A stretch of DNA of 64,000 bases from assembly GCF_024807845.1 (NCBI RefSeq), contig NZ_JANUEQ010000001.1, positions 1,296,900-1,360,899 on the forward strand. The letters run 5' to 3'. This DNA comes from Klebsiella sp. BIGb0407 (GTDB lineage Bacteria > Pseudomonadota > Gammaproteobacteria > Enterobacterales > Enterobacteriaceae). Under the pieces are notes generated by a model. That model saw nothing but the letters and a program-made list of their open reading frames with translations, ran no database searches and was not told the origin of the DNA. The translations under genes were made by a program, and so were the position numbers. This document shows, piece by piece, positions 497-45,470 of the stretch (its first letter is position 1; every line of letters starts with the position of its first letter).

Positions 497-1608
497 GGAG
501 GGAGAATATCCTCTGCCTGCTGCGGATTAACGCCCATCTGTTTCAGAAACTGTTGCTGTAGCTGCAACAGCTCGGCCAGGCTTATCTTCTGATAGTCGAT
601 ATTAAATCGCATCGCTACCCGGGCAATCAGATAGCTTAATGCCGGATAATGGCGATGATGCCAGTTGGGAAAAAGATGATGAGTCAGATGTAAATTAGCG
701 CCGCCAAGCCAGTAGCCTAACCAGGCGGGACGAGCCTGCCAGTCAAAGGTGGTGGTGAAAACATGCTGATACCAGGTATGCGGCATATTTCCCACGGCTG
801 GCGCTTCAAAAAAATGTGATTTTGCCCAATGGGTGCCAACAATCAGCATCACAAACAGCAGCGACGACACCATCTGGGATAGCAGATAGATAATCAATAA
901 TGTGGAGAAACTGAACTCGGCAGAGAGCACATAAGCGGGAATAACCAAGGCCAGTAAAAAATGCAGACATTTACTGATAAGAAAAATAGTCCACCCTTTC
1001 AGGCCTCGCATAGCCATTTTCGGCGTTACTCTGGTCTTACCGGCCCTGTCAAGCCAGTCCACCAGCCAGATATACCAGGGGAAGGTAAAGGCGGCAATTA
1101 ATGGCCAGTACCAGTGCTGAAGACGCATAAAAGGTTTCCAGCGTTGAAAGGGCGTCTGGCGTAACAGGCCATTTTCATCAATATCCGGGTCATAACCCGA
1201 AATATTCGTATGCGTGTGATGAAAAATAACATGACGCACTCGCCAGCAGTCCGGATCTAGCCCCAGCGGAATCGACACTATCCGCCCCGTTAAGGCATTC
1301 GCCCGGGCAGACCGAAAGAAGGCATTATGAGAGGTATCGTGTACCACATTGATGACCAGCAGCATGGCACTAAAAATAAATCCCAGATACCAGCCGAACA
1401 GCGCCATACCAGAATGTTGTTGCAGGATTAACCCGTAACAGGTCAGACAAATGCCTAAGAGGAAGATCATTTTACCTATAGCCCATTTATCGGCAAAACG
1501 ATTGTCCTGACGGGTACGCAGATACTGCTGTGCCGCCTGCATCAGCGCTTTATGCAATGCTAAATCATCTGCCTGATAAGCCAGCGGGCGTAAGGGAGTT
1601 CGGCTCAT
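493..1608 (-). CDS. Membrane fatty-acid desaturase (second copy)
   Basis: This 371-residue protein has the three histidine clusters of membrane-bound di-iron fatty-acid desaturases: HDTSH in the first third, HHTHT in the middle and HLTHH near the C-terminus. Four or so hydrophobic membrane segments flank them. It should introduce a double bond into an acyl chain at the inner membrane. It is a paralogue of the neighbouring desaturase at 1605-2708, sharing the RVRHVIFHH and GLxLxLTHHLFP contexts. Start and stop overlap both neighbours by ATGA, pointing to translational coupling. Position and stereochemistry of the double bond, and whether the substrate is phospholipid, CoA or a pathway intermediate, cannot be read from the sequence. 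Confidence 0.88.
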   Translation of the reverse strand: MSRTPLRPLAYQADDLALHKALMQAAQQYLRTRQDNRFADKWAIGKMIFLLGICLTCYGLILQQHSGMALFGWYLGFIFSAMLLVINVVHDTSHNAFFRSARANALTGRIVSIPLGLDPDCWRVRHVIFHHTHTNISGYDPDIDENGLLRQTPFQRWKPFMRLQHWYWPLIAAFTFPWYIWLVDWLDRAGKTRVTPKMAMRGLKGWTIFLISKCLHFLLALVIPAYVLSAEFSFSTLLIIYLLSQMVSSLLFVMLIVGTHWAKSHFFEAPAVGNMPHTWYQHVFTTTFDWQARPAWLGYWLGGANLHLTHHLFPNWHHRHYPALSYLIARVAMRFNIDYQKISLAELLQLQQQFLKQMGVNPQQAEDILPP

Positions 1609-2708
1609 TCTTCAGATCTCTTTACGGGAGGCTGTCCCATCTGCCGTAAAAATCGACGCTGTCTAACTAACAGTTCCCGATAACCGATGCAGCGGTAATC
1701 CATGCCATAACACGTCGCAAGCTCACCAATAATCTCAGCAAGTGCCGGATAATGGCGATGGTTGAGCTGCGGAAACAGATGATGGGTTAAATGATAGTTA
1801 AGACCGCCAGTCAGATGGTGAAGCCAGCGCGGCGAGGCAACCCAGTCACAGGCTGTCGCGAAATTATGATGATACCAGCCATGCGGCATCTGTTTATTTT
1901 CAGGTGCCTCGAAAAACTCCGCTTCCGCCCAGTGCGTACCGAGTAATAAAAAGACTACCATCAGGGAAGCACACATCTGACTGAACAGATAAATCAGCAT
2001 CGCAGTCCAGGGTGAAATACCGTGCTGTAGCCCCACCATCAAGGGGACCACCAGCACCAGTAATAGATGCGCGACTTTACTGCCAATAAATAATGCCCAG
2101 CCCTGCTTACCACTTAATAGTTTTTCTTGCCGGAGCGGCGTTTTATTTAACCGGTCTCGCCAGTCAAAAACCCAGGTTATCCAGGGGAGTGACAGCGCTG
2201 CAATCAACGGCCAGTACAGATGCTGGTAGCGCATATGACGACGCCATTGCTGGAAAGGGGACTGGCGGAAAATACCATTTTCTTCGGTATCTAAATCGTA
2301 AATTTCAATATTTGCATACTGATGATGGAATATCACATGCCGTACTCGCCAGTAATCGGGATCCACTCCCAAAGGGAGAGTCACCAGTCGACCGACAAAC
2401 CGATTAATACCGGGACGACGGCTGAACGTATTATGGGAAGCATCATGATTGACATTCACATTCAATAGCATTGCCATCATGATGAAAATAAAGTAGCTGC
2501 AGGCAAAAAGCCACGACTGAGTGGTCATCAGCGTGATGCCATAACACAAGACTGATAGTCCAAGAAGAAGTAACGCTTTGCTCCACTGCCAGCCATCAGC
2601 ATAGGCATGATCGTGGCCAAGATATTCTCGTGCCGCCTGCTGCAGGTGTTGATGGAAAGCCTGTTCACTGTCACGGGGATAGTGCAAGGGTTCAAGTTTA
2701 TCAGACAT
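1605..2708 (-). CDS. Membrane fatty-acid desaturase (first copy)
   Basis: The protein begins MSDKLEPLHYPRD and is 367 residues long. I chose the start at 2708 rather than an in-frame codon further upstream because a purine-rich ribosome binding site (GGAAGGG) precedes it and it overlaps the previous stop by only 8 bases. Histidine boxes are HDASH, HHQYAN and HLTHH, the pattern of FADS-type membrane desaturases. The middle box has HHQYA where the paralogue downstream has HHTHT, so the two enzymes may differ in substrate or regiospecificity. It is in the middle of a coupled lipid operon. Confidence 0.87.
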   Translation of the reverse strand: MSDKLEPLHYPRDSEQAFHQHLQQAAREYLGHDHAYADGWQWSKALLLLGLSVLCYGITLMTTQSWLFACSYFIFIMMAMLLNVNVNHDASHNTFSRRPGINRFVGRLVTLPLGVDPDYWRVRHVIFHHQYANIEIYDLDTEENGIFRQSPFQQWRRHMRYQHLYWPLIAALSLPWITWVFDWRDRLNKTPLRQEKLLSGKQGWALFIGSKVAHLLLVLVVPLMVGLQHGISPWTAMLIYLFSQMCASLMVVFLLLGTHWAEAEFFEAPENKQMPHGWYHHNFATACDWVASPRWLHHLTGGLNYHLTHHLFPQLNHRHYPALAEIIGELATCYGMDYRCIGYRELLVRQRRFLRQMGQPPVKRSEE

Positions 2709-3813
2709 CAGCGCCCTTCCTTCTTCCCCAGCCACACAACACGCTGATGCCGTGAAGCATTAGTCCCGATAAGGTCACTAACCAAAAAGTATGATTCCAG
2801 CCTGACCCTATAATCAGTAAACCCCATAACATCAGCGTGAGCCAAAACCAGCTCAATACTCCCCAGCGCTGCCCTTGGGAAATGCCTCCGAGGGCTACCG
2901 ATCCAAAAGCCAGCAGAATAAACAGCGCAACCTGAGCAAAAGTGACATTCTGATAACCATAACCATAGAGCTGGATATAGCCTAATACCAGGGCGAACAG
3001 CAGCAGAGCACCACTGACTAACATCCATGCTGAGGCATAAAACTGGCGCTTTGCTCCTGTGCCTGAAGCGGCTTTGTGCCATAAGCGCCAGAAGGGACGA
3101 TTACTGGCAATAAAAGGATTATTACTTGGCTGTTCACCTTTAACACCGTAATCATAGGGTTCGTCGGGTGCGACTTTAAAGGTGCCAAATAGCTTGTCCC
3201 AGAAAATAAAGCTTCCGCCATAATTGCTGTCCGAATAAGCACGGTCATTAATATGATGGACTCGATGATGTGTCGGGGTGACAAAGATCTTTTCCAGCCA
3301 GCCCAGATTCGGCTTCACCGATATATGATTAAAAAACTGCACGGTGTAGTGCAATATTGAGACGGTCAGAAATACCGTGAGCGGCACGCCCAGCCATGCC
3401 AGGACAATAAAGAAAGGTATCGATGTCAGCGAGGAGTACCAGGAGTTTCGCACTCCCAGCGATAAATTATAGTGATGTCCCTGATGATGGACGACGTGCA
3501 CAGCCCATAAAACCGCCAGGCGATGATGCAGCCGGTGTAGCCAGTAAAACCCAAAGTCCCAGGCCAGAATTGCAAAACACCAGACCCAGACGGGTGAGGT
3601 TTCGGCAAATAAATTGAGGCTGAAGTGGCTGAGCACCAGGCTATAACAGAGCACCTCAAGGCCACGAAACAGCCAGAGCATAATATGCCCGGAGTTAAGG
3701 TTAAAAATCACCTCATGCCAGTCAACTTTTTGCCGGCTGTTAAATCTCAGTAGTAAGGCCTCGCCCAGTACAAAGAGTAACATCAGAATAACCGGAACAA
3801 TTAACTCACTCAC
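2701..3813 (-). CDS. Sterol desaturase / fatty-acid hydroxylase family protein
   Basis: A 370-residue membrane protein of the di-iron fatty-acid hydroxylase superfamily. Histidine motifs are HRLHH (residues 93-97), HVVHH (106-110) and THHRVHH (181-187), which together form the metal site; the C-terminal third adds several hydrophobic segments. Such enzymes hydroxylate or desaturate lipid tails, including alkylglycerols. The start is a GTG at 3813 inside the end of the PAP2 gene, preceded by GGAGAAG; no ATG lies nearby. Within the operon it probably modifies the product of the ketosynthase/ligase genes. The substrate is unknown. Confidence 0.85.
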   Translation of the reverse strand: MSELIVPVILMLLFVLGEALLLRFNSRQKVDWHEVIFNLNSGHIMLWLFRGLEVLCYSLVLSHFSLNLFAETSPVWVWCFAILAWDFGFYWLHRLHHRLAVLWAVHVVHHQGHHYNLSLGVRNSWYSSLTSIPFFIVLAWLGVPLTVFLTVSILHYTVQFFNHISVKPNLGWLEKIFVTPTHHRVHHINDRAYSDSNYGGSFIFWDKLFGTFKVAPDEPYDYGVKGEQPSNNPFIASNRPFWRLWHKAASGTGAKRQFYASAWMLVSGALLLFALVLGYIQLYGYGYQNVTFAQVALFILLAFGSVALGGISQGQRWGVLSWFWLTLMLWGLLIIGSGWNHTFWLVTLSGLMLHGISVLCGWGRRKGADV

Positions 3814-4414
3814 CAGGCTTCTCCTTTTGCCGATTCATTACCCAGCTCACCAGCATACCCGCCCCAGATGCCAGCACCACACCGCCGATCAGGTCGATAA
3901 ACAGATGACGTTTTAACTGCAAAATAGAAAACGCGATCACGCCTCCCCAGAGTATAAACGCCAGAGTAAGAAAATGCTTCCGGCTCCTGGCTATCGCCCA
4001 TACCGCCAGAAGCGTCAGAGCGACATGCAGCGAGGGAAAGCAGTTTTGTGCCGAGTCTACCGAAATTAACTGTTTCAATAGCACAGATTCAATACCCTGC
4101 CCGCTGTCCGGCGGGGTAACGAGGGTGGTGGGCCAGAGTAAATAAATCAGCCCGGCACCCAGCGCTGTCAGCTGCATCGATCGGGTCAGCCAGCGAACAG
4201 CCGTTAAAGGTGCCAGAAAATAGCCAGCCGGGATAATCAGGAAAAAAGACAAATAGGCCCAGATAGCTGAAGCTGAGAAAGGGATCTTATTATCAATCCA
4301 TGATGGTGTGATGACCTGACCGGCGCTTTGTAGGTTATCGGTTAAATGATAAATAACACCGACGAATCCCCAACCCAGTAGTAGCTGCCCAGCCCGATAA
4401 AATCCATTTTTCAT
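3806..4414 (-). CDS. PAP2-superfamily membrane phosphatase/phosphotransferase
   Basis: A 202-residue protein with about six hydrophobic segments. NCFPSLHVA (around residues 119-127) is the PSxH motif, and KRHLFIDLIGG (around 168-178) is the later H-xxx-D motif of PAP2 enzymes. The form with FPSLHVA resembles the inositol-phosphorylceramide-synthase subgroup. It would remove or transfer a phosphate or phospho-head group on a lipid at the membrane. It is coupled by ATGA to the preceding ligase gene and overlaps the following hydroxylase. I do not recognise an exact homologue. Confidence 0.8.
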   Translation of the reverse strand: MKNGFYRAGQLLLGWGFVGVIYHLTDNLQSAGQVITPSWIDNKIPFSASAIWAYLSFFLIIPAGYFLAPLTAVRWLTRSMQLTALGAGLIYLLWPTTLVTPPDSGQGIESVLLKQLISVDSAQNCFPSLHVALTLLAVWAIARSRKHFLTLAFILWGGVIAFSILQLKRHLFIDLIGGVVLASGAGMLVSWVMNRQKEKPGE

Positions 4415-5697
4415 AGGTTAGCCTTGCGAATAATACGTCGCCGTTTGCTATCAAACTGCGGGATCACCGCGGCGCTTTCCAGCTTCCAGCACAACTTTTG
4501 CGTATCGACCCCTTGCTTATCGAGCATGGCAACCAGCGCCAGTTTACTGATTTCCAGCGCGTCGGGGGAACAATCTGCAAGCAGGTGCAAGGTCTGAGAG
4601 CCCTGCTGAGTCAGCCGATAATCGGCATTAAGCGGTAATGAGATGGCCAGCACACGGCTACAGAGATCGGCGAAGATAGTCTGCGGCTGCCCGTGGATAT
4701 CGGCGAGTATCAGCTGATCGTCCTGGCGTCCTTCAATATGTTGAATAGCCCGGGCAGGATTACCACAGGGGCACTTTTCTTCCCTGGCCACTAATACGTC
4801 ATCCAGCCGGTAACGGACTATAGGCTGCGTTTTCCGGGTAAAATCGGTAATAATCGGTGTAAAACGGTGCTCATCCAGCCACTGGGGTTCAATATGCAGA
4901 AACTCTTCATTAAGGTGCAAAACGCCATAGCGGCAGGTCGCTGCTAAAAAACCTTCGGTAGCCTGGTAAACCTCCCCCACCTCGCCGAAGACTTCAGTCA
5001 GTAACAGACGATCCTGATGTTCAAGTACCTCCGCGACAGAAATGACCTTTTTGACCTGTAGCCTGAGCTCGCCACGTTGCACACTCAAGGCCAGTTCACG
5101 TAGTACCTGGGCCGGAGCAACAATAATCGTCGGAGCCTGTTGTTCTAAAGGGTGCAAATGGGAAGAATACGGTTGAAACAAATCATAGTAAGCTAGGCTC
5201 AGCCAGCGATTATTGACACTCTGGTAGAGATTATTATTGGCACGTAAAAATAACGCTACTCGTTCCCCGGCAAACAGACCATCGGGCAGCATTTTAGCCA
5301 GCATACCACCCGCCCATAATTGCTGCTCTTCCGGGCTGACGACAAATAAACCCCGAACTCCGGAAGTCCCCGAGGATAATCCGACACTGAATTTCCCGAC
5401 CTGGCGTGAAAAATCGCGATCTTTTTCACTTTGTATCGCGATATCAAGCAATTGCTGGCTACGCAGTCCCTGAGTATTCATCCGATCAAAATTTTTCATC
5501 ATCAGCGACTTATCCATTAGCGGCCAGTCAGTCATTGGCGTATTCAGATAGCGGCTAAACCACGGGCTTTTCGCCAGTACCCGACGAGAAAAACGTTCTA
5601 ACTGTCGCTGCTGATAACGTTCCAGGGCATCACGGCTGGTGAAATATTGACGACGGGTACGAAAATAGTGCCACAAGGTGCGGAGTAATGCGGTCAT
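4411..5697 (-). CDS. PaaK/F390-synthetase-type AMP-forming ligase
   Basis: A 428-residue adenylate-forming enzyme. SSGTSG (residues 108-113) is the phosphate-binding loop, TDFTRKTQPIVRYRLDD carries the conserved Arg and Asp that contact the adenylate, and CPCGNPAR followed by EGRQDD is the cysteine-containing hallmark of the phenylacetate-CoA ligase/F390 synthetase branch. It would activate a carboxylic acid as an acyl-AMP. In this operon the likely substrate is an acyl or beta-hydroxy acid from the ketosynthase and reductase. It is not of the usual OleC type, so beta-lactone formation is only a possibility. Starts ATG, overlapping the previous stop by ATGA. Confidence 0.85.
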   Translation of the reverse strand: MTALLRTLWHYFRTRRQYFTSRDALERYQQRQLERFSRRVLAKSPWFSRYLNTPMTDWPLMDKSLMMKNFDRMNTQGLRSQQLLDIAIQSEKDRDFSRQVGKFSVGLSSGTSGVRGLFVVSPEEQQLWAGGMLAKMLPDGLFAGERVALFLRANNNLYQSVNNRWLSLAYYDLFQPYSSHLHPLEQQAPTIIVAPAQVLRELALSVQRGELRLQVKKVISVAEVLEHQDRLLLTEVFGEVGEVYQATEGFLAATCRYGVLHLNEEFLHIEPQWLDEHRFTPIITDFTRKTQPIVRYRLDDVLVAREEKCPCGNPARAIQHIEGRQDDQLILADIHGQPQTIFADLCSRVLAISLPLNADYRLTQQGSQTLHLLADCSPDALEISKLALVAMLDKQGVDTQKLCWKLESAAVIPQFDSKRRRIIRKANL

Positions 5698-6500
5698 AAA
5701 TCCCCCTCATGGCAGAGGCGAATCTGACATTTTCCCCCTGACCAGAGCTGATTAAGTCGAGCCAGGGTCTGGTAGTAAGCTTGCGAATCATCCATCAGTA
5801 AATTGGCCATACGCGAAGGGCCCCGCAGCGTCTGATAGCTTACCGGTGACCAGGCCGCATCACTGGCCAGTAATACCCAGCCGTCATCCGTTTCAATAAA
5901 GGCCCCCCAGTGCCCGGCTGCATGCCCGGGTAACGGTACCAGTAATACTTGCCCCTGGCTGCCGGGTAACTCATAACCCAGTTCAAACGGCATCAATTCT
6001 GAAGCCAGGGCAACCTGTCTGAAACTCTCAAAAAACTGCAGCGCCGTGTCGAATGTTTCAGGAATTAACCCCGGAATAAAAGCCTGTTTTAATGCGGCAA
6101 ACCCACGCAGATGACGCGTTTTCTGCCAGCCCTCCCCGGAACAAATAAACCTGAGAGAAGAGAAATCACGGAGCCCGGCAATATGGTCAGCATGAAAATG
6201 CGAGAGGATCATGCCGTCAATATCCCCGCTGAGATAACCCTGTTCCCGGAGCTGAGAGACCAGAGACTCTTGCGGGTCAAAATAAACCGGCGTTACCCGG
6301 CGGTAGAGCCAGAATAACCCTGAGCGAGTATATTGCTCAAACCAGTTCGCATAGCCGGTATCCCACAACCAGCGTTTATCGCCTGCTTCCAGCAAATATG
6401 CCCGGGCTGGAAACTTACAGACCCGAAAACTGGCACCTTTCAAAGCCATACAGCCTGGATGGGTGCAATACCCCACTTCAAAGGTGGTTATTTTAGCCAC
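5694..6500 (-). CDS. Metallo-beta-lactamase-fold hydrolase (lactonase-like)
   Basis: A 268-residue protein with the di-metal motif HFHADH (His101, His103, Asp105, His106), a further His193 in PGHAAGH, Asp214 in ASDAAW and His264 near the C-terminus. Ligand spacing resembles N-acyl-homoserine lactonases of the quorum-quenching type. Starts with GTG at 6500; no better ATG is near. The gene sits between the OleD-like reductase and the ligase, so the substrate may be a lactone or thioester intermediate of the lipid pathway rather than a free signal. That is inference from context. Confidence 0.83.
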   Translation of the reverse strand: MAKITTFEVGYCTHPGCMALKGASFRVCKFPARAYLLEAGDKRWLWDTGYANWFEQYTRSGLFWLYRRVTPVYFDPQESLVSQLREQGYLSGDIDGMILSHFHADHIAGLRDFSSLRFICSGEGWQKTRHLRGFAALKQAFIPGLIPETFDTALQFFESFRQVALASELMPFELGYELPGSQGQVLLVPLPGHAAGHWGAFIETDDGWVLLASDAAWSPVSYQTLRGPSRMANLLMDDSQAYYQTLARLNQLWSGGKCQIRLCHEGDL

Positions 6501-6506
6501 GACGTC

Positions 6507-7514
6507 TCACTCCCTGACTGAGGTACGTAACCAGTCACCAGTACGCAAAATACTCTCTTCGAGAGAATAAAGCGGGCGATAACCCAGTTCATTAATCGCT
6601 AGCTGAGAATCAAGGGTCATATCAAAATAGACCGCCCCTACGCTATAGCGGGTTAGCATCGGCTCTTTACCGGTTATTTTCGCTACCTGCTCCATTCCTG
6701 CTGCAACCATCGCTAAGAGTCGATAAGGCACTGCCTGCAAGGTAACACCATAATTGAGCTGCTGATTTAAAATAGCTTCAACCATCTCAGCCAGCCGCTG
6801 TGGCTGCTGATTAGTGATGTTGTATATCGCTCCGGAAGGCAGGTTTGGCTGCGTAGTCGCCAGGGCCATGGCATGAACCACATTCAGGACGAAAGTCAGG
6901 TCAAGCAGTGCCATGCCCCCACCCGGCAAGCGCAGTACGTTATTTTTACCGCGGATATTCTGTAACAGGCGCGGAATAATCACCCGGTCATGGGGACCAA
7001 ATAATCCGCGTGGTCGCAAGATAATATATTGGGTATCAGGATAAAGTTCTATGGGCTGTTGCAGGGCCTGTTCAGCAGCATACTTACTGGAGGCATAATG
7101 ACTTGAGAAACGCCTGGCGCGATAGGTTTCGGGTAAATTATGGTGATGCTGAAAATCAAAATACACGGCCGGAGAAGAGATATGGACAAAGCGCCTGACG
7201 CCTTCGCGACCGGCAACTCGCGCCAGTTTCTCGGTCACGACTACATTCGTCTGGAAAAATTCTTCCGCCGTTCCCCAGGGAGATGATTTAGCCGCACAAT
7301 GCCAGACCGCATCACAGCCGATGACCAGCGACAGAAAAGTGTCATCTGAACACTGAGTCAAATCCAGGGGAATAAAGGTCGCGCCAAGCGCCTGTAGTTC
7401 TGCGCCTGCCAGCGGGTCACGTCCTGTTGCTATAACGCTATTCCCTTGCTCCAGCAACCATTGTGCGGCATTACGCCCTAACCCACTGGTTGCGCCCGTC
7501 ACCAGAATTTTCAT
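6507..7514 (-). CDS. OleD-like NAD(P)-dependent reductase/epimerase
   Basis: A 335-residue extended short-chain dehydrogenase. It opens MKILVTGATSGLG, has HCAAKSSPWGTAEEFF followed by NVVVTEKL, and a catalytic YxxxK (HYASSKYAAEQ). The CAAKSSPWG stretch matches the OleD/3-beta-HSD subgroup, which reduces 2-alkyl-3-ketoacyl products of OleA-type condensation. It directly follows the ketosynthase gene with ATGA overlap, the pairing expected if it reduces that enzyme's beta-keto product. It is a paralogue of the partial gene at the left edge. Confidence 0.85.
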   Translation of the reverse strand: MKILVTGATSGLGRNAAQWLLEQGNSVIATGRDPLAGAELQALGATFIPLDLTQCSDDTFLSLVIGCDAVWHCAAKSSPWGTAEEFFQTNVVVTEKLARVAGREGVRRFVHISSPAVYFDFQHHHNLPETYRARRFSSHYASSKYAAEQALQQPIELYPDTQYIILRPRGLFGPHDRVIIPRLLQNIRGKNNVLRLPGGGMALLDLTFVLNVVHAMALATTQPNLPSGAIYNITNQQPQRLAEMVEAILNQQLNYGVTLQAVPYRLLAMVAAGMEQVAKITGKEPMLTRYSVGAVYFDMTLDSQLAINELGYRPLYSLEESILRTGDWLRTSVRE

Positions 7515-8518
7515 GGCAGAATCACCATACCCGCTAATGTCAGCCCCGCGGCGGTACCAATCAGCATGACGGGTTTCCCGGGATTAACACGCCCTGTTGT
7601 CATGGCTTCATGCAAAGCGAAAGGCAGTGATGCCGCTACCTGATTACCGTGATGGCGATAAATATCAACCAGAACTTCATTCGGTACATGGAGGCGTTTA
7701 CGCATATGCTCCAGCGCTAAATGGCTGGCCTGATGAGGAACGACGGTAGCAATCTCCGCGAGTGTCAGCTGGCATTGCGCCAGCAGCCGCTGGAAATACC
7801 CCTCAATAATCGATGAGGCATGACGGAATAAGGCCTTGCCCTGCATATGAAATAAGAAGTCTTGCTCTTCCATTCCGGCACGAGGATTACGACGAGTGCC
7901 TCCCGCACGAATTTCACAGAGTTCACTACCGGAAGGATACATTTCAATCAGGCTACCCAGCACCCGACTATCACCATTCCCCCGCTCAACGATGGCACAG
8001 GCCGCACCATCCCCGAAAATTAAAGAAGACTCTTCGTGATTCCAGTCAATACCGCGCGAAGCGATATCAGCGCTAACAATAGCAATGCGCCGATAACTGC
8101 CAGCATTCAGCAATCCGGTCGCGACTTGCAGAGCGGAAATAAAGCTGACACAGCTGCTGTTAATGTCAAAGCCCGCGATTCCCGGAGCAAGCCCGGCCGA
8201 CTTCAGAATATGTATCGCGGTACAGGGCAATGCCTGATAAGGAATCGCCGACGCTGAAATCAGCAGGTCGATTGAGTCGGGATCAATAGCATGGCGCTCC
8301 AGCGCATTATGCAAAGCGGCAGCGCCAAGTTCAGCCTGACTCGCACTGTCACTGGCATGAAAACGGTATTCAATACCTGAACGCTGTTCCACGTACCCCG
8401 CGGCTTTACCCAGCTTTTTGTCCAGCATCGCTGACTCGACTTTGCCCGGTGGCAATGCGGTGCCAGTGGCAATGATGCTCAATGCCTGCGAGGAATGCGA
8501 ATAAAGAGGAGTCGACAT
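7511..8518 (-). CDS. Ketoacyl synthase III (FabH/OleA-like), first gene of lipid operon
   Basis: A 335-residue thiolase-fold condensing enzyme with an intact triad: Cys123 in DINSSCVSF, His262 in VVPHQAS and Asn292 in HHGNQVAAS. Housekeeping FabH has about 317 residues and sits in the fab cluster; this is a separate specialised copy. It likely condenses an acyl thioester with malonyl-ACP or with a second acyl chain, giving a beta-keto product for the neighbouring reductase. It is the promoter-proximal gene of at least nine coupled leftward genes. Head-to-head condensation (OleA mode) is suggested by the OleD-like partners, not proven. Confidence 0.85.
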   Translation of the reverse strand: MSTPLYSHSSQALSIIATGTALPPGKVESAMLDKKLGKAAGYVEQRSGIEYRFHASDSASQAELGAAALHNALERHAIDPDSIDLLISASAIPYQALPCTAIHILKSAGLAPGIAGFDINSSCVSFISALQVATGLLNAGSYRRIAIVSADIASRGIDWNHEESSLIFGDGAACAIVERGNGDSRVLGSLIEMYPSGSELCEIRAGGTRRNPRAGMEEQDFLFHMQGKALFRHASSIIEGYFQRLLAQCQLTLAEIATVVPHQASHLALEHMRKRLHVPNEVLVDIYRHHGNQVAASLPFALHEAMTTGRVNPGKPVMLIGTAAGLTLAGMVILP

Positions 8519-38154: not shown

Positions 38155-38748
38155 ATGCGAGTAATAACCCTGGCCGGAAGCCCCCGTTTTCCGTCACGTT
38201 CCAGTGCGTTACTGGAATATGCCCGTAAGCAACTACGCAAGCTGGATGTGGAGGTTTATCACTGGCATCTACAAAATTTTGCTCCTGAAGACCTTCTTTA
38301 TGCGCGTTTTGATAGCCCGGCACTGCAAACACTGACCGAGCAACTGGCAACAGCGGATGGTGTTATCATCGCGACACCTGTCTATAAAGCTTCATTTTCA
38401 GGCGGCCTGAAGACATTGCTTGATTTGCTTCCTGAGCGGGCACTGGACAACAAAGTGGTACTCCCACTCGCCAGCGGTGGTACTATTGCCCATATGTTAG
38501 CGGTCGACTACGCTCTGAAGCCGGTCTTGAATGCACTGAAAGCGCAGGAGATTTTACACGGCGTTTTCGCCGACGATAGCCAGGTTACTGACTACCAGCA
38601 TAAACCGCAATTCACCCCTGACCTGAAACTAAGGCTGGATGGCTCATTAAATCTTTTCTTACAGGCATTGCAGCGAAGAAAGATAAACGTTAGCGACTTA
38701 TTAATTCAGCAAGTCATTACCAATGCTGAAGTACAAATAGCGTCATAG
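38155..38748 (+). CDS. ssuE: NADPH-dependent FMN reductase SsuE, without its operon
   Basis: A 197-residue flavodoxin-fold reductase. [21 protein letters not shown] and [20 protein letters not shown] are close to E. coli SsuE, which supplies reduced FMN to the alkanesulfonate monooxygenase SsuD. In E. coli it is followed by ssuADCB; here none of those genes follows and an AT-rich unrelated cluster starts 450 bases on. The enzyme itself looks intact. Confidence 0.93.
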
Positions 38749-39196
38749 AGTAAACAGTCTGTGTTAATGACGCCGAATGCTTAAGTGTATGCTCTCTTAT
38801 TAAGAGAGCCATTAAATTATAATCTGGATGATTGACTCGACTATTTAACAATCATCGAATGTAATCCTCATTATTCTTATACAGACCTATTAGTTGCCAC
38901 ATTAAAAATAACGCTGATTAAGCCGGGCATATAATTACTTTCATTAAATCCCCTTTGTCTGAAAAACTCCCAAATTATACAATAACTTACTCCCTCCACC
39001 TTCATAGAAAAACGGTTTAAAATAAAAACACAACTGTTCCAAATTTATTGGACAAATGAAATATTTATTAATTAAATTAAAAAAATAACATCAAGATCAT
39101 AGTGGCTATCACCTCACATTAATGATAGAAATAAAGGTGTAGGCACTGCTGTTATCCGTACTGATATTAACCATTCAATTACAAGGAGTAATATAA
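38749..39196. other. AT-rich region between ssuE and the peptide gene
   Basis: About 450 bases. A short dyad GCTCTCTT-ATT-AAGAGAGC (38792-38810) may end ssuE transcription. The inverted repeat TCCAA-ATTTA-TTGGA (39038-39052) is a possible operator. The peptide-gene promoter must lie here, but I cannot choose one set of boxes. No remnants of ssuA were recognised. Confidence 0.5.
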
Positions 39197-39265
39197 ATGC
39201 AAAATAAAACCATTATTATCATACCTAAAAAACCTCGTCCTATTCTTCTGCCACACCATCTGTAA
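39197..39265 (+). CDS. 22-residue Ile/Pro-rich peptide, candidate RiPP precursor
   Basis: The frame reads MQNKT then IIIIPKKPRPILLPHHL and stops, 22 residues. A strong AAGGAG (39183-39188) lies eight bases before ATG, which is good evidence it is translated. It is the first gene of the cluster, followed after five bases by a perfect hairpin. Small precursors next to RRE-containing and oxidase genes are typical of RiPP pathways; PqqA of the PQQ pathway is about the same length. The Pro/Arg-rich tail with terminal Leu loosely recalls proline-rich antimicrobial peptides. Alternatively it is an attenuator leader peptide. I know no named homologue. Confidence 0.65.
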   Translation: MQNKTIIIIPKKPRPILLPHHL

Positions 39266-39270
39266 GTAAC

Positions 39271-39302
39271 ACTATTCAGGCATCATTCGGTGCCTGAATA
39301 GT
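39271..39302 (+). terminator. Perfect 12-bp hairpin after the peptide gene
   Basis: ACTATTCAGGCA pairs perfectly with TGCCTGAATAGT around an 8-base loop. The tail is ATTTATTA, weak for termination, so read-through into the enzyme genes is likely. Such a leaky hairpin would give more peptide mRNA than enzyme mRNA. Confidence 0.75.
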
Positions 39303-39428
39303 ATTTATTAGTCGGTCAAGGTAACTCACCGGGGACAGGTGAAAAATATAAAAAGTTATGGCATATCAGCAGTATAAAATCGATTACTCAAAGCGATAAC
39401 TGCTCTGACACTCATCAGGGAGGAAACC

Positions 39429-40409
39429 ATGGATTATGGTAATTTGAAGCCAAAACTTTATTGTTCGCTCAGCATACAAGACGAAGTTATTATTGCAGTA
39501 CGTGGTAATGAAGAATTCACAATAGGGCCACTGCCTTTCGAACATGATCTGACATTAAAAATACTGAACAGATTTAATGGTATGTATACTATTAAAGAGT
39601 TAGTAAATAAATATAATATTCAAGATACCGATTATAAGAAACTCCTTGAGTTAGTCGATGGCTTATCAGAATTTGGCCTTCTTTTAAAGAATCAGCAAGT
39701 TGATTTTGTTTCAGGAATAGAGTGTCTTCTTGAAGTAGAAGACTTACAAAACAAATTATTATACGAAATTTTATATAAAAATATTTTTTGGACCAAATGC
39801 CAGACACCTGAAGAAGTCCCTTTTAATGTATTTATCGGTCTGGCGATTGAAAACTATCATTTCCTCTATCGAGAAAGCTGGTTTGATGCCCCGATACTCT
39901 CATGGCAGGGTTCAAAAAATACGCGTGTATTAATGAATGAATTTTTTTGTGAGGAATATGGTCATGATGAACTTATCTTGAAATCACTCAATACCGTTGG
40001 AATTACAAGGGAGGAAATATTTAAAACAGTTCCGTTACCTGAATCCTTGGCGTTATGTAATACTCTGGCCTATTGGTCTGCAAATGACCCTTTGTTCTTT
40101 TATACCACGTTAGGTATTTTAGAAGGTAAAGATATCAAGCTGGATTCCTATGTTAACGCAATGGAAAATAACAGTATAGTCCCTACTGAGTTCATCTATT
40201 ATATTAAAGAACATTCAATGATAAACCTGAATGCTGAACATGGAAATTTAGGCAGGGAGTTATTTAAAAATATTCCAGCAGTATCTCGTGCTGATGTAGA
40301 TAGATTGAAAGCACAAACATATCTGTTTATAGACATTTATAATAAATTTTATTTATCAGTATGGCAGCATTATTCCTCCTGTGAACAACTATTACGTCTG
40401 ATAAAGTAA
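39429..40409 (+). CDS. RRE-like + heme-oxygenase-like metal oxidase (HDO), protein 1
   Basis: 326 residues. Residues about 5-90 (IIAVRGNEEFTIGPLP ... TIKELVNKYNI ... LLELVDGLSEFGLLL) have the beta-strand plus winged-helix pattern of PqqD/RRE domains that bind RiPP leaders. Residues 110-326 are helical and carry HDO-type ligands: Glu141 and His144 in IENYHF, Glu176, His179 and Asp180 in CEEYGHDE, Glu232 in GILEG, His262, Asn266 and His271. HDO enzymes use two irons to oxidise or cleave amino-acid or fatty-acid substrates. Start ATG has AGGGAGG upstream. Codon use is AT-rich. Domain assignments are by eye. Confidence 0.7.
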   Translation: MDYGNLKPKLYCSLSIQDEVIIAVRGNEEFTIGPLPFEHDLTLKILNRFNGMYTIKELVNKYNIQDTDYKKLLELVDGLSEFGLLLKNQQVDFVSGIECLLEVEDLQNKLLYEILYKNIFWTKCQTPEEVPFNVFIGLAIENYHFLYRESWFDAPILSWQGSKNTRVLMNEFFCEEYGHDELILKSLNTVGITREEIFKTVPLPESLALCNTLAYWSANDPLFFYTTLGILEGKDIKLDSYVNAMENNSIVPTEFIYYIKEHSMINLNAEHGNLGRELFKNIPAVSRADVDRLKAQTYLFIDIYNKFYLSVWQHYSSCEQLLRLIK

Positions 40410-40421
40410 AAGGATATCATA

Positions 40422-41420
40422 ATGAACCTATCTCATCGTTTATTCGAAAAGCCGCGATTAAGATCCGGCGTAACATTCTCTGAGGGTGAACAAGAAATAT
40501 TAATAGAATATCGTGACCAGAGTTGTAGTCTTCTCTATGATGAGATATCCACCTCAGACATGATTTCATTTTTATTAACAATACAGAAAGAAACATTTAC
40601 CACTGAACAACTGAATCATCAGTATCAGACAACTCTTGGCGATATTAATGATTTACTCCGTGAACTGGACCGCCTCGGACTATTAGACGAAGGAAAAGAA
40701 CCCTCTACTGATGAATATTGTACAGGGGAGGATTTTTATCATGTAAAACTACTGCCAATGGTTAGAAACTTGCAGTACGAACTAAATAGCTCTCCTTTTT
40801 ATATAAGAATGCAAGAAGGAAAAATCACTCGTAATGAGTTAATCGGCTTTGCGATGGAGTATTATCACTTAGTAAAAATGGCTCCTGGTTTGATAGCACC
40901 GTCATTAAGTCAAATCGTTAATGAGCAAGCAAATAAACAACTTATTAAACTTTTTATTGATGAGTATGATCATGATGTCATGATGCTTGCTTCTCTGGAG
41001 GCTATCGGGGTTCCAAGAGAAACTATATTACAACGCCAGCCACTTGCCTCAACTTTTTCATCCTGTATAAGTCTGGGCGTTTATTCAAGACAACATTGTT
41101 TAAGCTTTTTTAGTGCTCTTTTTTTATTTGAAACTCCATCCACAGAATTTAATGAATTATTTGTTGATTGTTGTAAAAAACTAGACATTCCATCCGGGTT
41201 TTATAAACCCATCATTAAGCATTCTGATATAAATGAACAAGAAAGCCATGATACTATAACCGAGACGCTTTTAAAGACCATTCCCGTGATATCAAATGAA
41301 GAGCAGATCACAACACTAATTAATATCCATAGTCTGGTAGAGATGCTACATAAACAGGATCAGGAAATCGTTGATTACTATAGCCATCCTGATGTTGATT
41401 TATACCGTATTTTTTCTTAA
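40422..41420 (+). CDS. RRE-like + heme-oxygenase-like metal oxidase (HDO), protein 2
   Basis: 332 residues, 12 bases after protein 1 and its paralogue. N-terminal RRE-like part: residues about 15-90, ending DINDLLRELDRLGLLDEG. C-terminal HDO part aligns without gaps over the ligand helices: Glu146 and His149 in MEYYHL, Glu181, His184 and Asp185 in DEYDHDV, Glu237 in FLFETP, His267, Asn271 and His276. The complete set suggests an active oxidase. Working with protein 1 as a heterodimer or on successive steps is plausible but inferred. Confidence 0.7.
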   Translation: MNLSHRLFEKPRLRSGVTFSEGEQEILIEYRDQSCSLLYDEISTSDMISFLLTIQKETFTTEQLNHQYQTTLGDINDLLRELDRLGLLDEGKEPSTDEYCTGEDFYHVKLLPMVRNLQYELNSSPFYIRMQEGKITRNELIGFAMEYYHLVKMAPGLIAPSLSQIVNEQANKQLIKLFIDEYDHDVMMLASLEAIGVPRETILQRQPLASTFSSCISLGVYSRQHCLSFFSALFLFETPSTEFNELFVDCCKKLDIPSGFYKPIIKHSDINEQESHDTITETLLKTIPVISNEEQITTLINIHSLVEMLHKQDQEIVDYYSHPDVDLYRIFS

Positions 41421-41519
41421 AAAACTTCCCTTCCTATAAATTCGAATTAATTACAGACGCCATTCACAAGCGTCATGAATATGAAGAATATAGTTTCTGC
41501 TCCAAAGTGAGGGTATATT

Positions 41520-42791
41520 ATGTCTAATGGACTAATTAAAAAACGACGTTATTCTGACTATATAAACCCTTACTGGGTCGAGACGTTATCAATAATGGAA
41601 CTACCTGGAACATGGTCGAAAGCTGAAAATGAATATCTCTACGATAGTAATAATGTTTGCTGGCTTGATTGCGTCGCTGGGTTTGGCACTATTCCATTTG
41701 GACACAACAATCCTCATTTTATAAAAATATTAAAAAACCATCTATCGAAAAATATACCGTCAACTTTTCCTTTTGGTGCAAATTATCCCTCTGCAATTCT
41801 CGCAGAGAAAATAATAAATAGTTTCCCCCAAAGAGACAGCAAAGCACATTTTTCCTCTAGTGGTAGCGAGGCTGTTGAGACGGCTTTAAAAATGGCTATG
41901 TCATATACCAGACGCTCTAAGTTTATCTCTGTTGAGCGAGGGTATCATGGATTAACGCTGCAAAGCATGTTGCTTAATGGGTCTGACATTTGGGCACAGA
42001 CACTACCTGAAAGAGAAAGTCATGTTTCTCTTGTCAGTCCAGGAGATATTGAATCCATTAGTCTGTTATTGCAAACGGGTGAATATGCTGCATTAGTGCT
42101 TGAGATATCTCAAGGGGTAGGAGGTGGATACACATGGGATAGTGAAGATTTAAAGCAACTGCACCACTTATGTCATCAGCATGGAACTCTTCTTATCGTT
42201 GATGAGGTTCAGACAGGCTGGGGGCGTAGCGGACATATCAGTACTTATTCACATCTGGCTTTTGGTTTATACCCTGATCTTATTATTTTTTCAAAAGGAA
42301 TGACAAATGGCTTATTACCTCTGGCTGTAACAATAAGCACCACAGCTGTACATGCCAGCCTGTTTGGTCATAAAGGCTGTGCAAAAATTCATGGCTCTAC
42401 TTATTCTGGTTACAGTGCAGGTATTGCTCTTGGCATTGCCTCATTCGATTATCTCGCCGATCATAATATATGCCAACAGGTTGTGATAACAAGTCAGTTA
42501 TTACGTAAAGGGTTTCAAACTTGTGCTACAAAATATAATATCCCATTATCAATTGAAGGCATTGGATTACTTATAACATTAACCTTTAGCCACAATATAC
42601 CAGACTTAGCCGGTTATTGCTGGGAATGTTACTGCAAAAATAACATTTTGGTTAATTATTCAGCTCATCGAGAGAATACACTGGTGTTAACACCACCGTT
42701 AATAATTAGTGAGGAATCAAGCTATTTTATTCTTGATGTATTTAATTCAGCGCTGTTGAATTATAGTGCAACCTATTCGAGGTTACTATGA
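41520..42791 (+). CDS. Class III PLP aminotransferase
   Basis: A 423-residue fold-type I enzyme, full length. SSSGSEAVE (112-120) binds the PLP phosphate, GYHG (141-144) stacks on the ring, DEVQTGWGRSG holds Asp228 and Gln231, and Lys259 in FSKGMTNG is the Schiff-base lysine. Class III members usually move amino groups to or from aldehydes or omega-amines. In this cluster it could aminate a carbonyl made by the oxidases on the peptide or on a released amino acid. It starts 99 bases after protein 2 with GAGGG before ATG and overlaps the next gene by ATGA. Substrate unknown. Confidence 0.9.
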   Translation: MSNGLIKKRRYSDYINPYWVETLSIMELPGTWSKAENEYLYDSNNVCWLDCVAGFGTIPFGHNNPHFIKILKNHLSKNIPSTFPFGANYPSAILAEKIINSFPQRDSKAHFSSSGSEAVETALKMAMSYTRRSKFISVERGYHGLTLQSMLLNGSDIWAQTLPERESHVSLVSPGDIESISLLLQTGEYAALVLEISQGVGGGYTWDSEDLKQLHHLCHQHGTLLIVDEVQTGWGRSGHISTYSHLAFGLYPDLIIFSKGMTNGLLPLAVTISTTAVHASLFGHKGCAKIHGSTYSGYSAGIALGIASFDYLADHNICQQVVITSQLLRKGFQTCATKYNIPLSIEGIGLLITLTFSHNIPDLAGYCWECYCKNNILVNYSAHRENTLVLTPPLIISEESSYFILDVFNSALLNYSATYSRLL

Positions 42792-44242
42792 AAGAAGCTC
42801 TCTGGTTTATAAGCCAGTATAGTCATCCCTATATAAACATAAAAAGAAGCGATATCTCGATAGATAATGACGTTATTATCATTGATACTAATTCTGATTT
42901 ATTCAGAATAAAAACATCATCTTACAATGAAACTTTATTTATTGTTGAGTGTCTGATATCTCTTTCAAATTTTAAAAGCGCTAACTTTATGATTGCTCTC
43001 GGTAATAATGCTCTTGAAGAAGTCATTCATACGCTTTATACCCATGGGTACATATTTAACAATGATACAATACTAACCAGTGAAAAAGAAAAGAAATCTT
43101 TTCGATTGAAGGTTCACTCTTTATTAAAAAACTATACCACCGCTTTTTTGGAAACGATCTCAGCGAATAAAGAATCAACAAATATTGAAATACTCTTAAC
43201 CATTAACTTATTAAAAAACATGTCAAATGAAAGAGTAGTCAGTGATGAAACATGGAGATCTGATAATTTTTATTTTATCTCTTTATGTATTCTGATGCAA
43301 AATGCAAAGAACAACAACCCTTATGGTTATACATTAATCAATGAATTCATGAATTCAATACTTGCATATTTAAACAGGCAGGACTACTCGCCAAATATTG
43401 TTATCAATTCTGATTTTATATATATTTACTCAAATAGAGACATTGAGTCTTGTCTTTATGCTTTTAAATCACTTTTAATATATTCCCTTGATCTGAATGC
43501 AAAACGGGCAGGCTATCAACTAAATGATTTTTATGAGACAGTATCAGGGATAAATTTTGCGTTGATGAGCGAAAATTTTATTCGTGAACATTCTATCCAC
43601 GCAGGTGAATCTAATTTTCTCAAAGAACTTAAAAAACCAGAGAATCATGAGTTATTGGCCCCGGCCTGTTATATTCAGGAATATTTTATAAACTATCGAT
43701 TTACAGAAACTATCGCCCCGATGATTTCAAAGCGATTAAATGATTCAATAAAAAAATCATTCACCCGATACTATGAAGAAGAGGTCGGACACGAAATTTA
43801 CGAACTCGAAACCTGTATAAATCTGGGTGTGACAAAAGAGTATTTAGACAACCACCTTCCACTTCCTTTAACACAAGTTTTTTGTGATGCATTTACTTAT
43901 CTGTCATCTTCAGAACTGTTGTCATATTTTACGTCAGTAATGATCACTGAAGGAATACCTGGAGAGCCTTCGCAAATAAATGATGTTTTAATCAATAGTA
44001 CTATATTACAAGACTCCTTCAATGTTGCCTCAAGGAAACATGAACAGCTAAATATCGAGTTAGATCATCAATATTTATCACGATTATTCCTCTCTAACAT
44101 TCATTCAATTGATAATGCCGAACAAAAAAAATCGCTTCATATCCTTGCATGGATGCTTGAATTAAATCATCGCGCATGGGAAGAGTTACATCAGCGTATT
44201 TATATTGAGCGTAAAGATTATTTGGAACCAGCTACCTTATGA
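42788..44242 (+). CDS. Degenerate HDO-family protein 3 with RRE-like N-terminus
   Basis: 484 residues, a longer paralogue of the two oxidases. The N-terminal part (about 25-95, ending EEVIHTLYTHGYIFN) resembles the RRE-like region, then comes an extra helical segment of roughly 170 residues. The HDO core aligns without gaps, but the first ligand pair is replaced: Gln297 for Glu and Phe300 for His (IQEYFINYR). Glu332, His335, Glu336, Glu388, His418, Asn422 and His427 remain. It probably cannot bind two irons in the usual way and may be a scaffold or partner. It overlaps both neighbours by ATGA. Confidence 0.65.
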   Translation: MKEALWFISQYSHPYINIKRSDISIDNDVIIIDTNSDLFRIKTSSYNETLFIVECLISLSNFKSANFMIALGNNALEEVIHTLYTHGYIFNNDTILTSEKEKKSFRLKVHSLLKNYTTAFLETISANKESTNIEILLTINLLKNMSNERVVSDETWRSDNFYFISLCILMQNAKNNNPYGYTLINEFMNSILAYLNRQDYSPNIVINSDFIYIYSNRDIESCLYAFKSLLIYSLDLNAKRAGYQLNDFYETVSGINFALMSENFIREHSIHAGESNFLKELKKPENHELLAPACYIQEYFINYRFTETIAPMISKRLNDSIKKSFTRYYEEEVGHEIYELETCINLGVTKEYLDNHLPLPLTQVFCDAFTYLSSSELLSYFTSVMITEGIPGEPSQINDVLINSTILQDSFNVASRKHEQLNIELDHQYLSRLFLSNIHSIDNAEQKKSLHILAWMLELNHRAWEELHQRIYIERKDYLEPATL

Positions 44243-45450
44243 ATCCTGTTATTAATATTAATAAACCAGACATTGAAATTAAAAATGTTACTCAGTCTAA
44301 AAAGCGCATTGCTATCATTCTTAGCATTCATACATTTGAGCGTTTTTTATTCTTCTGTATATCTGTCGTGATGCCGCTTAATCTCTTCGGTGAAGGTGTA
44401 ATTACCTCTTCTGATATGGGTTTATTTTATCTGCTTTTGTTTAGTTTTTATCGTGGAACGCCCGTTTTATTTGGCTATATCTCTTCATTTATACATAAAG
44501 AAAAAATTCTTTATGTCTCTTTGGTTTTAGAGGTTTTTTCACTTGTTTATATGAGCCAGACGGTGGAACTATCTCATATCTATTTTTTCTCTTTTTTTAC
44601 TGGTACTGTCGGCGGTGCAACCACTATGATGATTATCAGTTTACTTGAAGAGGAAGATAAAAAATACAAAATAGAAATGCATAATAAAATTGAGCATGAT
44701 ATTTTCAATATCCATTTTATGTTAATTAATGCTGCAGCTTTTATAACGCCATTTCTTGCTTTGTTGTCGAGGAAAAATTATCAGATAGCAATTTTAATAT
44801 CTGCGTCAATATCATTCATTTTATTAATAGCATTTATACTATTTAACAACAAGAATAATTTATCAAGTCCATTAAGCTCTGCTCCTCCCAAAATAAATCT
44901 TCACCATAAATTTGATTTTAATTTCCTCTACATCTGGCTCGCATGCGTCAGTGTCTGGGCCGCTTGCTCTACCTTTTATGCTATTATCCCCTCACTGGAT
45001 TCTGTTTTTTTTGGTATGAAAGGCATAAACGTCTGGTTTTCACTGGATGCCGCTGCCGTGGTTTTATTTTTCTTTATTTTTAACCGGATAAAAATATTCA
45101 CTAAAAACACGGCTCAGAACGCATTTATCGGAATGGCCATACTTGCCGCTGGATTATTTTTAATTCCATTATTCAAAGATAACTTTTTATATTGCTCTGT
45201 CGCGATAATAGTCATTTCGTTTGGAGGCTATATCGCATTTCCTCAACTATATGGATTAGCGGTAAAAACAGACTTTCAGGAACGGAAGGTGTTCTATCTT
45301 GGATTAATGGCACTTTCAGGAGCTGTCGGTGAAAGCTGTATGCATACATTGTTTTGGATTACGGGTAATGCCAATTTTTGCCTGCTTCTGTCAGCAGTAT
45401 TCCTTATAACGACAGCAATTTTGATTAAACGCCGCGATATAAAATCTTAA
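44239..45450 (+). CDS. MFS transporter, probable product exporter
   Basis: A 403-residue membrane protein with about twelve hydrophobic segments and a central polar loop around residues 195-215, the major facilitator layout. Helix two to three region carries FYRGTPVLFGYISSF, a divergent form of the family's loop motif. It overlaps the preceding gene by ATGA and ends the cluster. Export of, and self-protection against, the cluster product is the simplest reading. It shows the same AT-rich composition. Confidence 0.8.
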   Translation: MNPVININKPDIEIKNVTQSKKRIAIILSIHTFERFLFFCISVVMPLNLFGEGVITSSDMGLFYLLLFSFYRGTPVLFGYISSFIHKEKILYVSLVLEVFSLVYMSQTVELSHIYFFSFFTGTVGGATTMMIISLLEEEDKKYKIEMHNKIEHDIFNIHFMLINAAAFITPFLALLSRKNYQIAILISASISFILLIAFILFNNKNNLSSPLSSAPPKINLHHKFDFNFLYIWLACVSVWAACSTFYAIIPSLDSVFFGMKGINVWFSLDAAAVVLFFFIFNRIKIFTKNTAQNAFIGMAILAAGLFLIPLFKDNFLYCSVAIIVISFGGYIAFPQLYGLAVKTDFQERKVFYLGLMALSGAVGESCMHTLFWITGNANFCLLLSAVFLITTAILIKRRDIKS

Positions 45451-45470
45451 TTTTAACTGTCATTACTCTG

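Follow-up and report, generated by a model that had tools for sequence, protein, structure and literature searches.

In a 64,000-nt stretch of the genome of Klebsiella sp. BIGb0407 (contig NZ_JANUEQ010000001.1, positions 1,296,900 to 1,360,899 of the forward strand; hereafter, the window), the genes between window positions 39197 and 45450 probably constitute a pathway of the ribosomally synthesized and post-translationally modified peptide (RiPP) type, in which heme-oxygenase-like dimetal oxidases (HDOs) would oxidize the free C-terminus of a gene-encoded peptide. The operon, all on the plus strand, starts with the candidate precursor gene (39197–39265; 22 codons and a TAA stop, encoding MQNKTIIIIPKKPRPILLPHHL), which is preceded by a strong ribosome-binding site, AAGGAG, at 39183–39188 and followed, directly 3′ of its stop, by a perfect intercistronic hairpin with a 14-bp stem and a 4-nt loop (39271–39302). 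Next come HDO1 (39429–40409), HDO2 (40422–41420), a class III aminotransferase (AT; 41520–42791), HDO3 (42788–44242) and a major facilitator superfamily (MFS)-like transporter, the putative exporter (44239–45450), with ATGA overlaps at the AT/HDO3 and HDO3/MFS junctions. The first-pass annotation of this DNA, made from the letters alone, had described the short gene with its ribosome-binding site, the hairpin, the three paralogous enzymes, the AT, the transporter and the overlaps, and all of these were borne out.

The tie between the peptide and the oxidase genes was assessed in relatives of the locus. When 84,980 species genomes were scanned using two short peptide patterns and an HDO1 alignment of four rows, 381 stretches were obtained, 37 of which were confirmed; an HDO1 search of plasmids matched five records. 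The 40 loci comprise the window, the 37 from the genome collection (Tistrella, found in both searches, is among these and was counted once) and plasmids of Robbsia and Rhodococcus; the plasmid matches from Enterobacter chuandaensis (28%, 65% covered) and Alteromonas (27%, 43%) were left out as too distant. Because the scan relies on two short patterns, the number of loci is a lower bound; the peptides of three loci (L052, L056 and L035) fell outside the open reading frame (ORF) length and motif limits of the pattern first used for the precursor peptide and were read separately. A short ORF ending in His-Leu-stop is present near HDO1 in all 40 loci (39 relatives and the window), and in 39 of them it lies at most 450 nt upstream, compared to 24 of 3660 random windows from the same loci; the exception is Tistrella, where the ORF is 1.9 kb upstream. 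The longer motif P.L...HL was found in 38 of the 40 loci and in 1 of the 3660 random windows. The peptide is found beside HDO1 far beyond chance, and a gene-encoded precursor located next to, and conserved with, the modifying enzymes, as is characteristic of RiPPs, was observed in every locus. The first-pass annotation had named, among the findings that would refute it, the lack of a conserved peptide beside homologous clusters and the lack of an RRE or PqqD match; neither of these refutations came about.

Within the peptide family, Leu at position −1 and His at −2 are invariant (40/40), Leu at −6 and Pro at −8 are found in 39 of 40 peptides, Arg at −9 in 32, and position −4 is evenly divided between Pro and Ala (20 each). 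The remainder differs: the peptides are 17 to 77 aa long as called (the start of the longest, in L070, is unsure, the ATG used by its relatives not being a start codon there), and the N-termini are short and hydrophobic in the clade of the window, Gln-rich in one Paraburkholderia clade and part of peptides of about 60 aa in Sphingomonas. All six codons for Leu, both for His and all three stops are used across the loci to write the His-Leu-stop end. Fixed last residues, despite variable length and codon use, place selection at the protein level and specifically at the peptide's end. Substitution counts, which are counts and not dN/dS estimates, are mixed, with synonymous changes prevailing in most close pairs and not in distant ones. 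Two HDO loci at a greater distance lack any His-Leu-stop end: L005 (on both strands; its 347-aa protein is the only Enterobacterales HDO2 match checked for a peptide) and L036 (on the plus strand). Taken together, these results support the assignment of the peptide to this enzyme set.

The three oxidase genes are related to one another, HDO1 matching HDO2 with E = 1.5 × 10−18 and HDO3 with E = 1.9 × 10−13. In Pfam, HDO1 is assigned to Haem_oxygenas_2 (40.5 bits, cut-off 28.9) and HDO2 to TENA_THI-4 (24.9 bits, cut-off 22), and HDO3 scores 21.4 bits with Haem_oxygenas_2, below the same cut-off of 28.9. The AlphaFold2 models of HDO1 (pLDDT 90.3) and HDO3 (pLDDT 87.6) show the seven-helix heme-oxygenase fold of the superfamily, which PqqC shares in the fold searches; the Foldseek matches of HDO3, in which a longer N-terminal part precedes the HDO domain, are HrmI, PqqC and CADD. 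By sequence, HDO2 appears to have the architecture of HDO1. When the HDO1 profile was compared with PDB sequences, the best match was MboA, the mangotoxin HDO (E = 0.003), whose metal ligands E86, H89, E143, H172, D176 and H181 align with E176, H179, E232, H262, N266 and H271 of HDO1; the spacing H-x3-N-x4-H in HDO1 matches H172-x3-D176-x4-H181 in MboA. The ligands predicted by homology are thus these six in HDO1 (with D180 as a possible addition), E181, H184, E237, H267, N271 and H276 in HDO2, and E332, H335, E336, E388, H418, N422 and H427 in HDO3, the latter two sets having been mapped by alignment to HDO1.

The ligand columns E, H, E, H, N and H are kept in 39 to 40 of 40 HDO1, 39 of 39 HDO2 and 36 of 36 HDO3 proteins (an alignment of each family was made from 24 of the 40, 23 of the 39 and 23 of the 36, respectively), and the Asp after the first His (D180) is kept in HDO1 in 40 of 40. 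Of the canonical set of three His and three carboxylates, five of six are retained, and the helix-3 Asp is replaced by Asn in every aligned copy of HDO1 (40/40), HDO2 (39/39) and HDO3 (36/36). This conservation suggests that the three proteins are metal enzymes with a ligand set of their own, rather than pseudo-enzymes. A single HDO1 departs at H179, that of Photorhabdus luminescens (L061, 9590–11730), which carries Tyr at this metal-ligand His; the peptide, HDO1 and HDO2 are present there, HDO3 and AT were not found and, given these features, the locus is probably decaying. In two Burkholderia loci, a further HDO2-like gene lies upstream of the peptide on the minus strand (L060, 7980–8762; L072, 7975–8763).

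In the HDO1 model, residues 13–81 (39465–39671) form three strands and three helices ahead of the HDO bundle and resemble PqqD, the type of RiPP recognition element (RRE) domain that is common, albeit not universal, in RiPP pathways. Aligned to 32 PqqD rows (from 35 PqqD loci, three of which were dropped at contig ends), the first domain of HDO1 gave an hhalign probability of 94.7 (E = 6 × 10−8) over the helical part, compared to 0.2 for the reversed control; with a smaller set of five PqqD rows, the probabilities were 11.6 for HDO1 and 14.6 for HDO2. The first domains of HDO2 and HDO3 are homologous to that of HDO1 (hhalign probability 92–96; 94.9 for HDO2). Neither the window proteins nor any of the family members scanned (24 of HDO1 and 23 of HDO2) matched the Pfam PqqD model, and stand-alone PqqD chains were not among the matches listed in the fold searches, one structure look-up spanning residues 93–319 only. 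By model topology and hhalign, a recognition domain is present on one putative modifying enzyme, HDO1.

Gene neighborhoods in the 40 loci were counted by tblastn. HDO1 is present in all loci, HDO2 in all except L047, where the contig ends, and HDO3 in 36 of the 38 loci with contigs that run on, being not found in Rhodococcus (L035) and L061 (the contigs of L037 and L047 end too early to judge). AT, which in the window scores 215 bits with Pfam Aminotran_3 and for which the best NCBIfam match is PigE (233 bits, under the cut-off of 850), with matches also to other class III families including ArgD and BioA, is found in 24 of 40 loci; among the 16 others, three contigs end too early. The window transporter matches MFS_1 with 31.5 bits, slightly under the cut-off of 33.4, and the transporter type varies among loci. 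Given this variation and the count for AT, both AT and the transporter fall outside the conserved core, and AT is an accessory enzyme. Genes for an ATP-grasp protein, an MFS transporter and a GNAT protein accompany the HDOs in Pseudomonas, Chimaeribacter and Photorhabdus tasmaniensis, the ATP-grasp gene being present in 6 of 40 loci; in the only one tested (L039), the ATP-grasp domain is above cut-off and LAL_C2, an L-amino-acid-ligase domain, scores 23.8 bits, under the cut-off of 29.4. An EamA transporter, and with it a GNAT protein, is encoded in the loci of Robbsia, Chromobacterium and two Paraburkholderia species. AT occurs in a second Paraburkholderia clade, of which L056, the locus tested, also encodes an EamA protein. 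In Sphingomonas, Dyella and some Burkholderia, the peptide is longer and the three HDOs are present without AT; in two of these loci, a GMC oxidoreductase gene follows those of the HDOs (L064, 9494–10990; L065, 13510–15042). In the HDO1 tree, the gene layouts group in clades, with modest support for the Robbsia/Chromobacterium group (70% of bootstrap trees).

Two further observations concern genes in or near such loci. A divergent MocR-type regulator (GntR plus aminotransferase) is encoded upstream of the peptide in Robbsia (L033, 7039–8436) and several Paraburkholderia; rough clustering counted this family in 11 loci. The E. chuandaensis plasmid carries a distinct cluster (L036, 299–8743) of two HDO-like proteins, a class I/II aminotransferase, an M14 peptidase, an MFS protein and a nucleotidyltransferase.

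The mechanism that we propose draws on MboA, a peptide acetylenase for which excerpts of a 2026 report (PMC13185094) describe the C-terminal carboxylate of the substrate as an iron ligand and the C-terminal side chain as the site of oxidation. The likeness of the enzymes to MboA, along with a peptide that is fixed only at its end, suggests by analogy that the same C-terminal geometry applies here, with the leader on the RRE-like domain. The 22-aa peptide would be made in excess over the enzymes, by virtue of its own ribosome-binding site and the hairpin after its stop. The N-terminal RRE-like domains of the HDO paralogues would bind a hydrophobic, strand-like leader (TIIIIPKK in the window) and present the free C-terminus, ...PxLxxxHL-COOH, to the MboA-like dimetal sites, where the invariant Leu, and perhaps also the His, would be oxidized, the HDOs acting in turn. 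In loci with AT, the carbonyl so formed could be converted to an amine; host peptidases would then free a small product for export. The sister clusters, which encode a GNAT protein and an ATP-grasp protein with a weak L-amino-acid-ligase match, suggest that the product is a small, amino-acid-like compound against which its maker would need protection.

Several considerations weigh against this interpretation, which draws on sequence and models. All the loci were found via HDO1, with peptides or HDOs that occur alone lying outside the sample, and the 40 loci are related, so that the counts overstate their independence. With Asn in place of the canonical Asp in all three HDOs, it is not certain that these proteins contain metal or are active. 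For HDO1, MboA and 3dde are nearly tied as matches (E = 0.003 vs. 0.0062), HDO2 is closer to CADD (E = 4 × 10−6) than to MboA (E = 0.065), and MboA is not among the 50 matches listed in either fold search of the HDO models. The first-pass annotation had placed an RRE/PqqD domain in all three proteins; this stands for HDO1, in profile–profile comparison only, and the direct match is weak or absent for HDO2 (hhalign probability 17.2) and HDO3 (4.1), a MocR winged-helix control giving 3.1; to these two proteins a PqqD-like domain can be ascribed only via homology to the HDO1 domain. The operon products include neither a leader peptidase nor a redox partner like MboB. Finally, thirteen loci with contigs that run on lack a nearby AT, and the role of AT is therefore not general.

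A narrower form of the same proposal, and not exclusive of it, follows the logic of pyrroloquinoline quinone (PQQ) synthesis: the peptide would be a mere carrier, from the His-Leu end of which a free non-canonical amino acid or dipeptide, for example a δ-oxidized and transaminated leucine, would be made, ligated and exported as an antimetabolite. We regard this as a reasonable possibility that falls short of an even chance. It is compatible with the ATP-grasp, MFS and GNAT genes of the sister loci, with the class III families matched by AT and with the ATP-grasp ligases of the MboA pathway (PMC13185094, in excerpt); however, the window operon has no ATP-grasp gene, and the chemistry on Leu is a guess. 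With similar reserve, we suggest that the loci may form a RiPP class of their own, in which two or three RRE-fused HDO paralogues with an Asn-for-Asp dimetal site oxidize, one after another, the invariant C-terminal His-Leu of a ribosomal scaffold peptide, and amination and release lead to a small antimetabolite, either a non-canonical amino acid or a dipeptide.

Alternatively, the peptide could be a regulatory leader, the C-terminus of which stalls the ribosome at the stop codon in response to a small molecule and so masks a terminator hairpin, the HDOs acting on a free amino acid. The conserved residues directly before the stop and the hairpin 3′ of it in most loci are what such a leader would show: the 70 nt 3′ of the stop fold with z < −2 in 28 of 40 loci (60 shuffles each), and the window hairpin (fold z = −6.6) is the only terminator-like site in 38700–39450, compared to a mean of 0.2 in shuffled sequences. 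Known HDOs, moreover, act mostly on amino or fatty acids, as stated in excerpts of a 2026 review (PMC13108848). However, the distance from stop to stem varies among loci, and three of the five Chromobacterium loci as well as the four Burkholderia and Paraburkholderia loci of the long-peptide clade (L060, L063, L064 and L072) are no more structured than shuffles. A leader would also leave the PqqD-like domain of HDO1 without a role, a permissive Rfam search of 38700–39500 yielded no credible cis-regulator match, and a substrate would account no less well for a fixed end on peptides of variable length; on balance, we consider regulation by such a leader unlikely. That the unmodified peptide, short, basic and proline-containing as it is, is itself the bioactive agent, with the adjoining oxidase genes serving an unrelated pathway, is very improbable because the peptide lies beside HDO1 in all 40 loci and many genera even though the surrounding genes change, which implies that it travels with the oxidases.

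The operon lies in a block of about 6.7 kb inserted between ssuE and pepN (38750–45455, by blastn against two congeners). Of the four genomes of the genus in the collection, HDO1 is present in two (that of the window and G535), and in the other two (L117 and L118) ssuE is directly beside pepN, i.e. the site is empty. The alignment breaks at 38749 and 45456 with L117 and at 38674 and 45490 with L118, which is more distant; these breaks and the empty sites indicate that the DNA was gained as one block. The block has a GC content of 0.344, compared to 0.472 for the flanks used. The horizontal acquisition that had been proposed from base composition is upheld. The ssuE gene (38155–38748) adjoins pepN in both congeners; this site lacks the ssuADCB genes that E. 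coli is known to have. One scan of viral contigs, made with a phage origin in mind, gave no relative.

The clade is rare. The HDO1 profile, searched against 398 genomes of the phylum, gave three matches at E = 10−10, two weak and a strong one only in its own genome. Among 394 Enterobacterales genomes, 26 had HDO2 matches at E = 0.001, of which only that in its own genome was strong; the others were at E = 1.9 × 10−12 or weaker, with 21–29% identity, in open frames of 220 to 751 aa. The E. coli genomes had no matches to 39000–42800. The closest relative outside the genus is a metagenome-assembled genome (MAG) contig (L037) with 83% identity in HDO1 and the same upstream neighbors, which ends soon after HDO2. 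The loci span fifteen genera or MAG lineages in two phyla: Pseudomonas, Paraburkholderia, Burkholderia, Robbsia, Chimaeribacter, Chromobacterium, Vibrio, Photorhabdus, Dyella, Sphingomonas and Tistrella, an Enterobacteriaceae, a Lysobacteraceae and a Legionellales MAG, and a single actinobacterial locus, in Rhodococcus.

Elsewhere in the window, a run of eight minus-strand genes (493–8518) encodes two similar fatty-acid desaturase-like proteins (one of them tested against Pfam), a fatty-acid hydroxylase, PAP2, a protein without a Pfam match, a metallo-beta-lactamase fold, an epimerase/3-beta-HSD-like protein and a ketoacyl synthase III, and looks, from these assignments, like an unusual lipid or beta-ketone pathway. 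At the gathering threshold, the only Rfam matches in the window are a pyrD leader and two tRNAs, and promoter matches are at chance level (3 vs. 3.9).

A conserved peptide end beside oxidases across distant bacteria points to an undescribed route from a peptide end to a small bioactive molecule. A peptide with several RRE-fused HDOs was not described among the matches listed in our literature search, which covered few subscription papers, and a description may exist elsewhere. According to excerpts of the 2026 review (PMC13108848), function has been validated for only about a dozen HDOs, and one ribosomal-peptide case is cited; here, two or three paralogous HDOs per locus are tied to a very short gene-encoded candidate substrate with a fixed end. 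With a 22-residue peptide in hand, HDO substrate choice, guidance by RREs and the role of the unusual Asn ligand become directly testable. The Robbsia record has no feature annotated at the peptide (the gene tables of that collection are incomplete), which suggests that genome annotation may miss such pathways.

Four known systems bear comparison. The PQQ pathway has a very short precursor, PqqA, the radical SAM enzyme PqqE and a Glu-Tyr core. The present loci share with it a very short precursor, a PqqD-type domain (on HDO1) and the PqqC fold, but differ in having no radical SAM protein among the operon products by Pfam; membership in the PQQ pathway was rejected, neither a PqqE-like protein nor a Glu-Tyr core being found in the window block. 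Furthermore, PqqC is metal-independent according to a review seen in excerpt, whereas the HDOs here keep a metal-ligand set.

For the other three systems, the comparison extends to what excerpts of the respective papers state. In daptides (2023, PMC10036551), as proposed here, an RRE-guided change occurs at a fixed C-terminal residue, after which no further residue is tolerated, and an aminotransferase follows oxidation; the daptide pathway, however, uses a predicted NAD(P)-dependent oxidative decarboxylase on Thr and a methyltransferase, in place of HDOs and Leu. The loci were not assigned to daptides, the C-terminal residue being Leu in 40 of 40 and not Thr, and AT scoring 139.5 bits against a daptide model cut-off of 450. 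Thiovarsolin (Santos-Aberturas 2019, PMC6511847) is likewise made from a ribosomal precursor, with an HDO, VarO, suggested to dehydrogenate Arg, and its cluster has an ATP-grasp ligase, an MFS protein and no specific protease, which makes it an earlier case of an HDO-containing RiPP pathway lacking a protease of its own in the cluster. Thiovarsolin biosynthesis involves a YcaO-TfuA pair and a single HDO, and its APR/GPR tripeptides come from a repeated core, in contrast to the two or three HDOs, the PqqD-like domain on HDO1 and the fixed C-terminal His-Leu here; no YcaO or TfuA was found among the Pfam matches of the five window operon proteins, and membership in the thioamitide/thiovarsolin group was discarded for the window operon.

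Mangotoxin (PMC13185094) is linked to the present loci by MboA, the best PDB sequence match of the HDO1 profile, with the same ligand spacing, and by ATP-grasp ligases, which are encoded in its cluster and in some of the sister loci. Assembly of the peptide by ATP-grasp ligases, as in mangotoxin, was rejected for the window, Pfam finding none among its operon proteins. The mangotoxin tripeptide is made by ligases and is not ribosomal, and its pathway employs one HDO with the redox partner MboB and has Asp176 where the HDOs here have Asn. If the loci are indeed a RiPP class of their own, toxins of the kind that mangotoxin producers build with ligases would here be reached by way of the ribosome.

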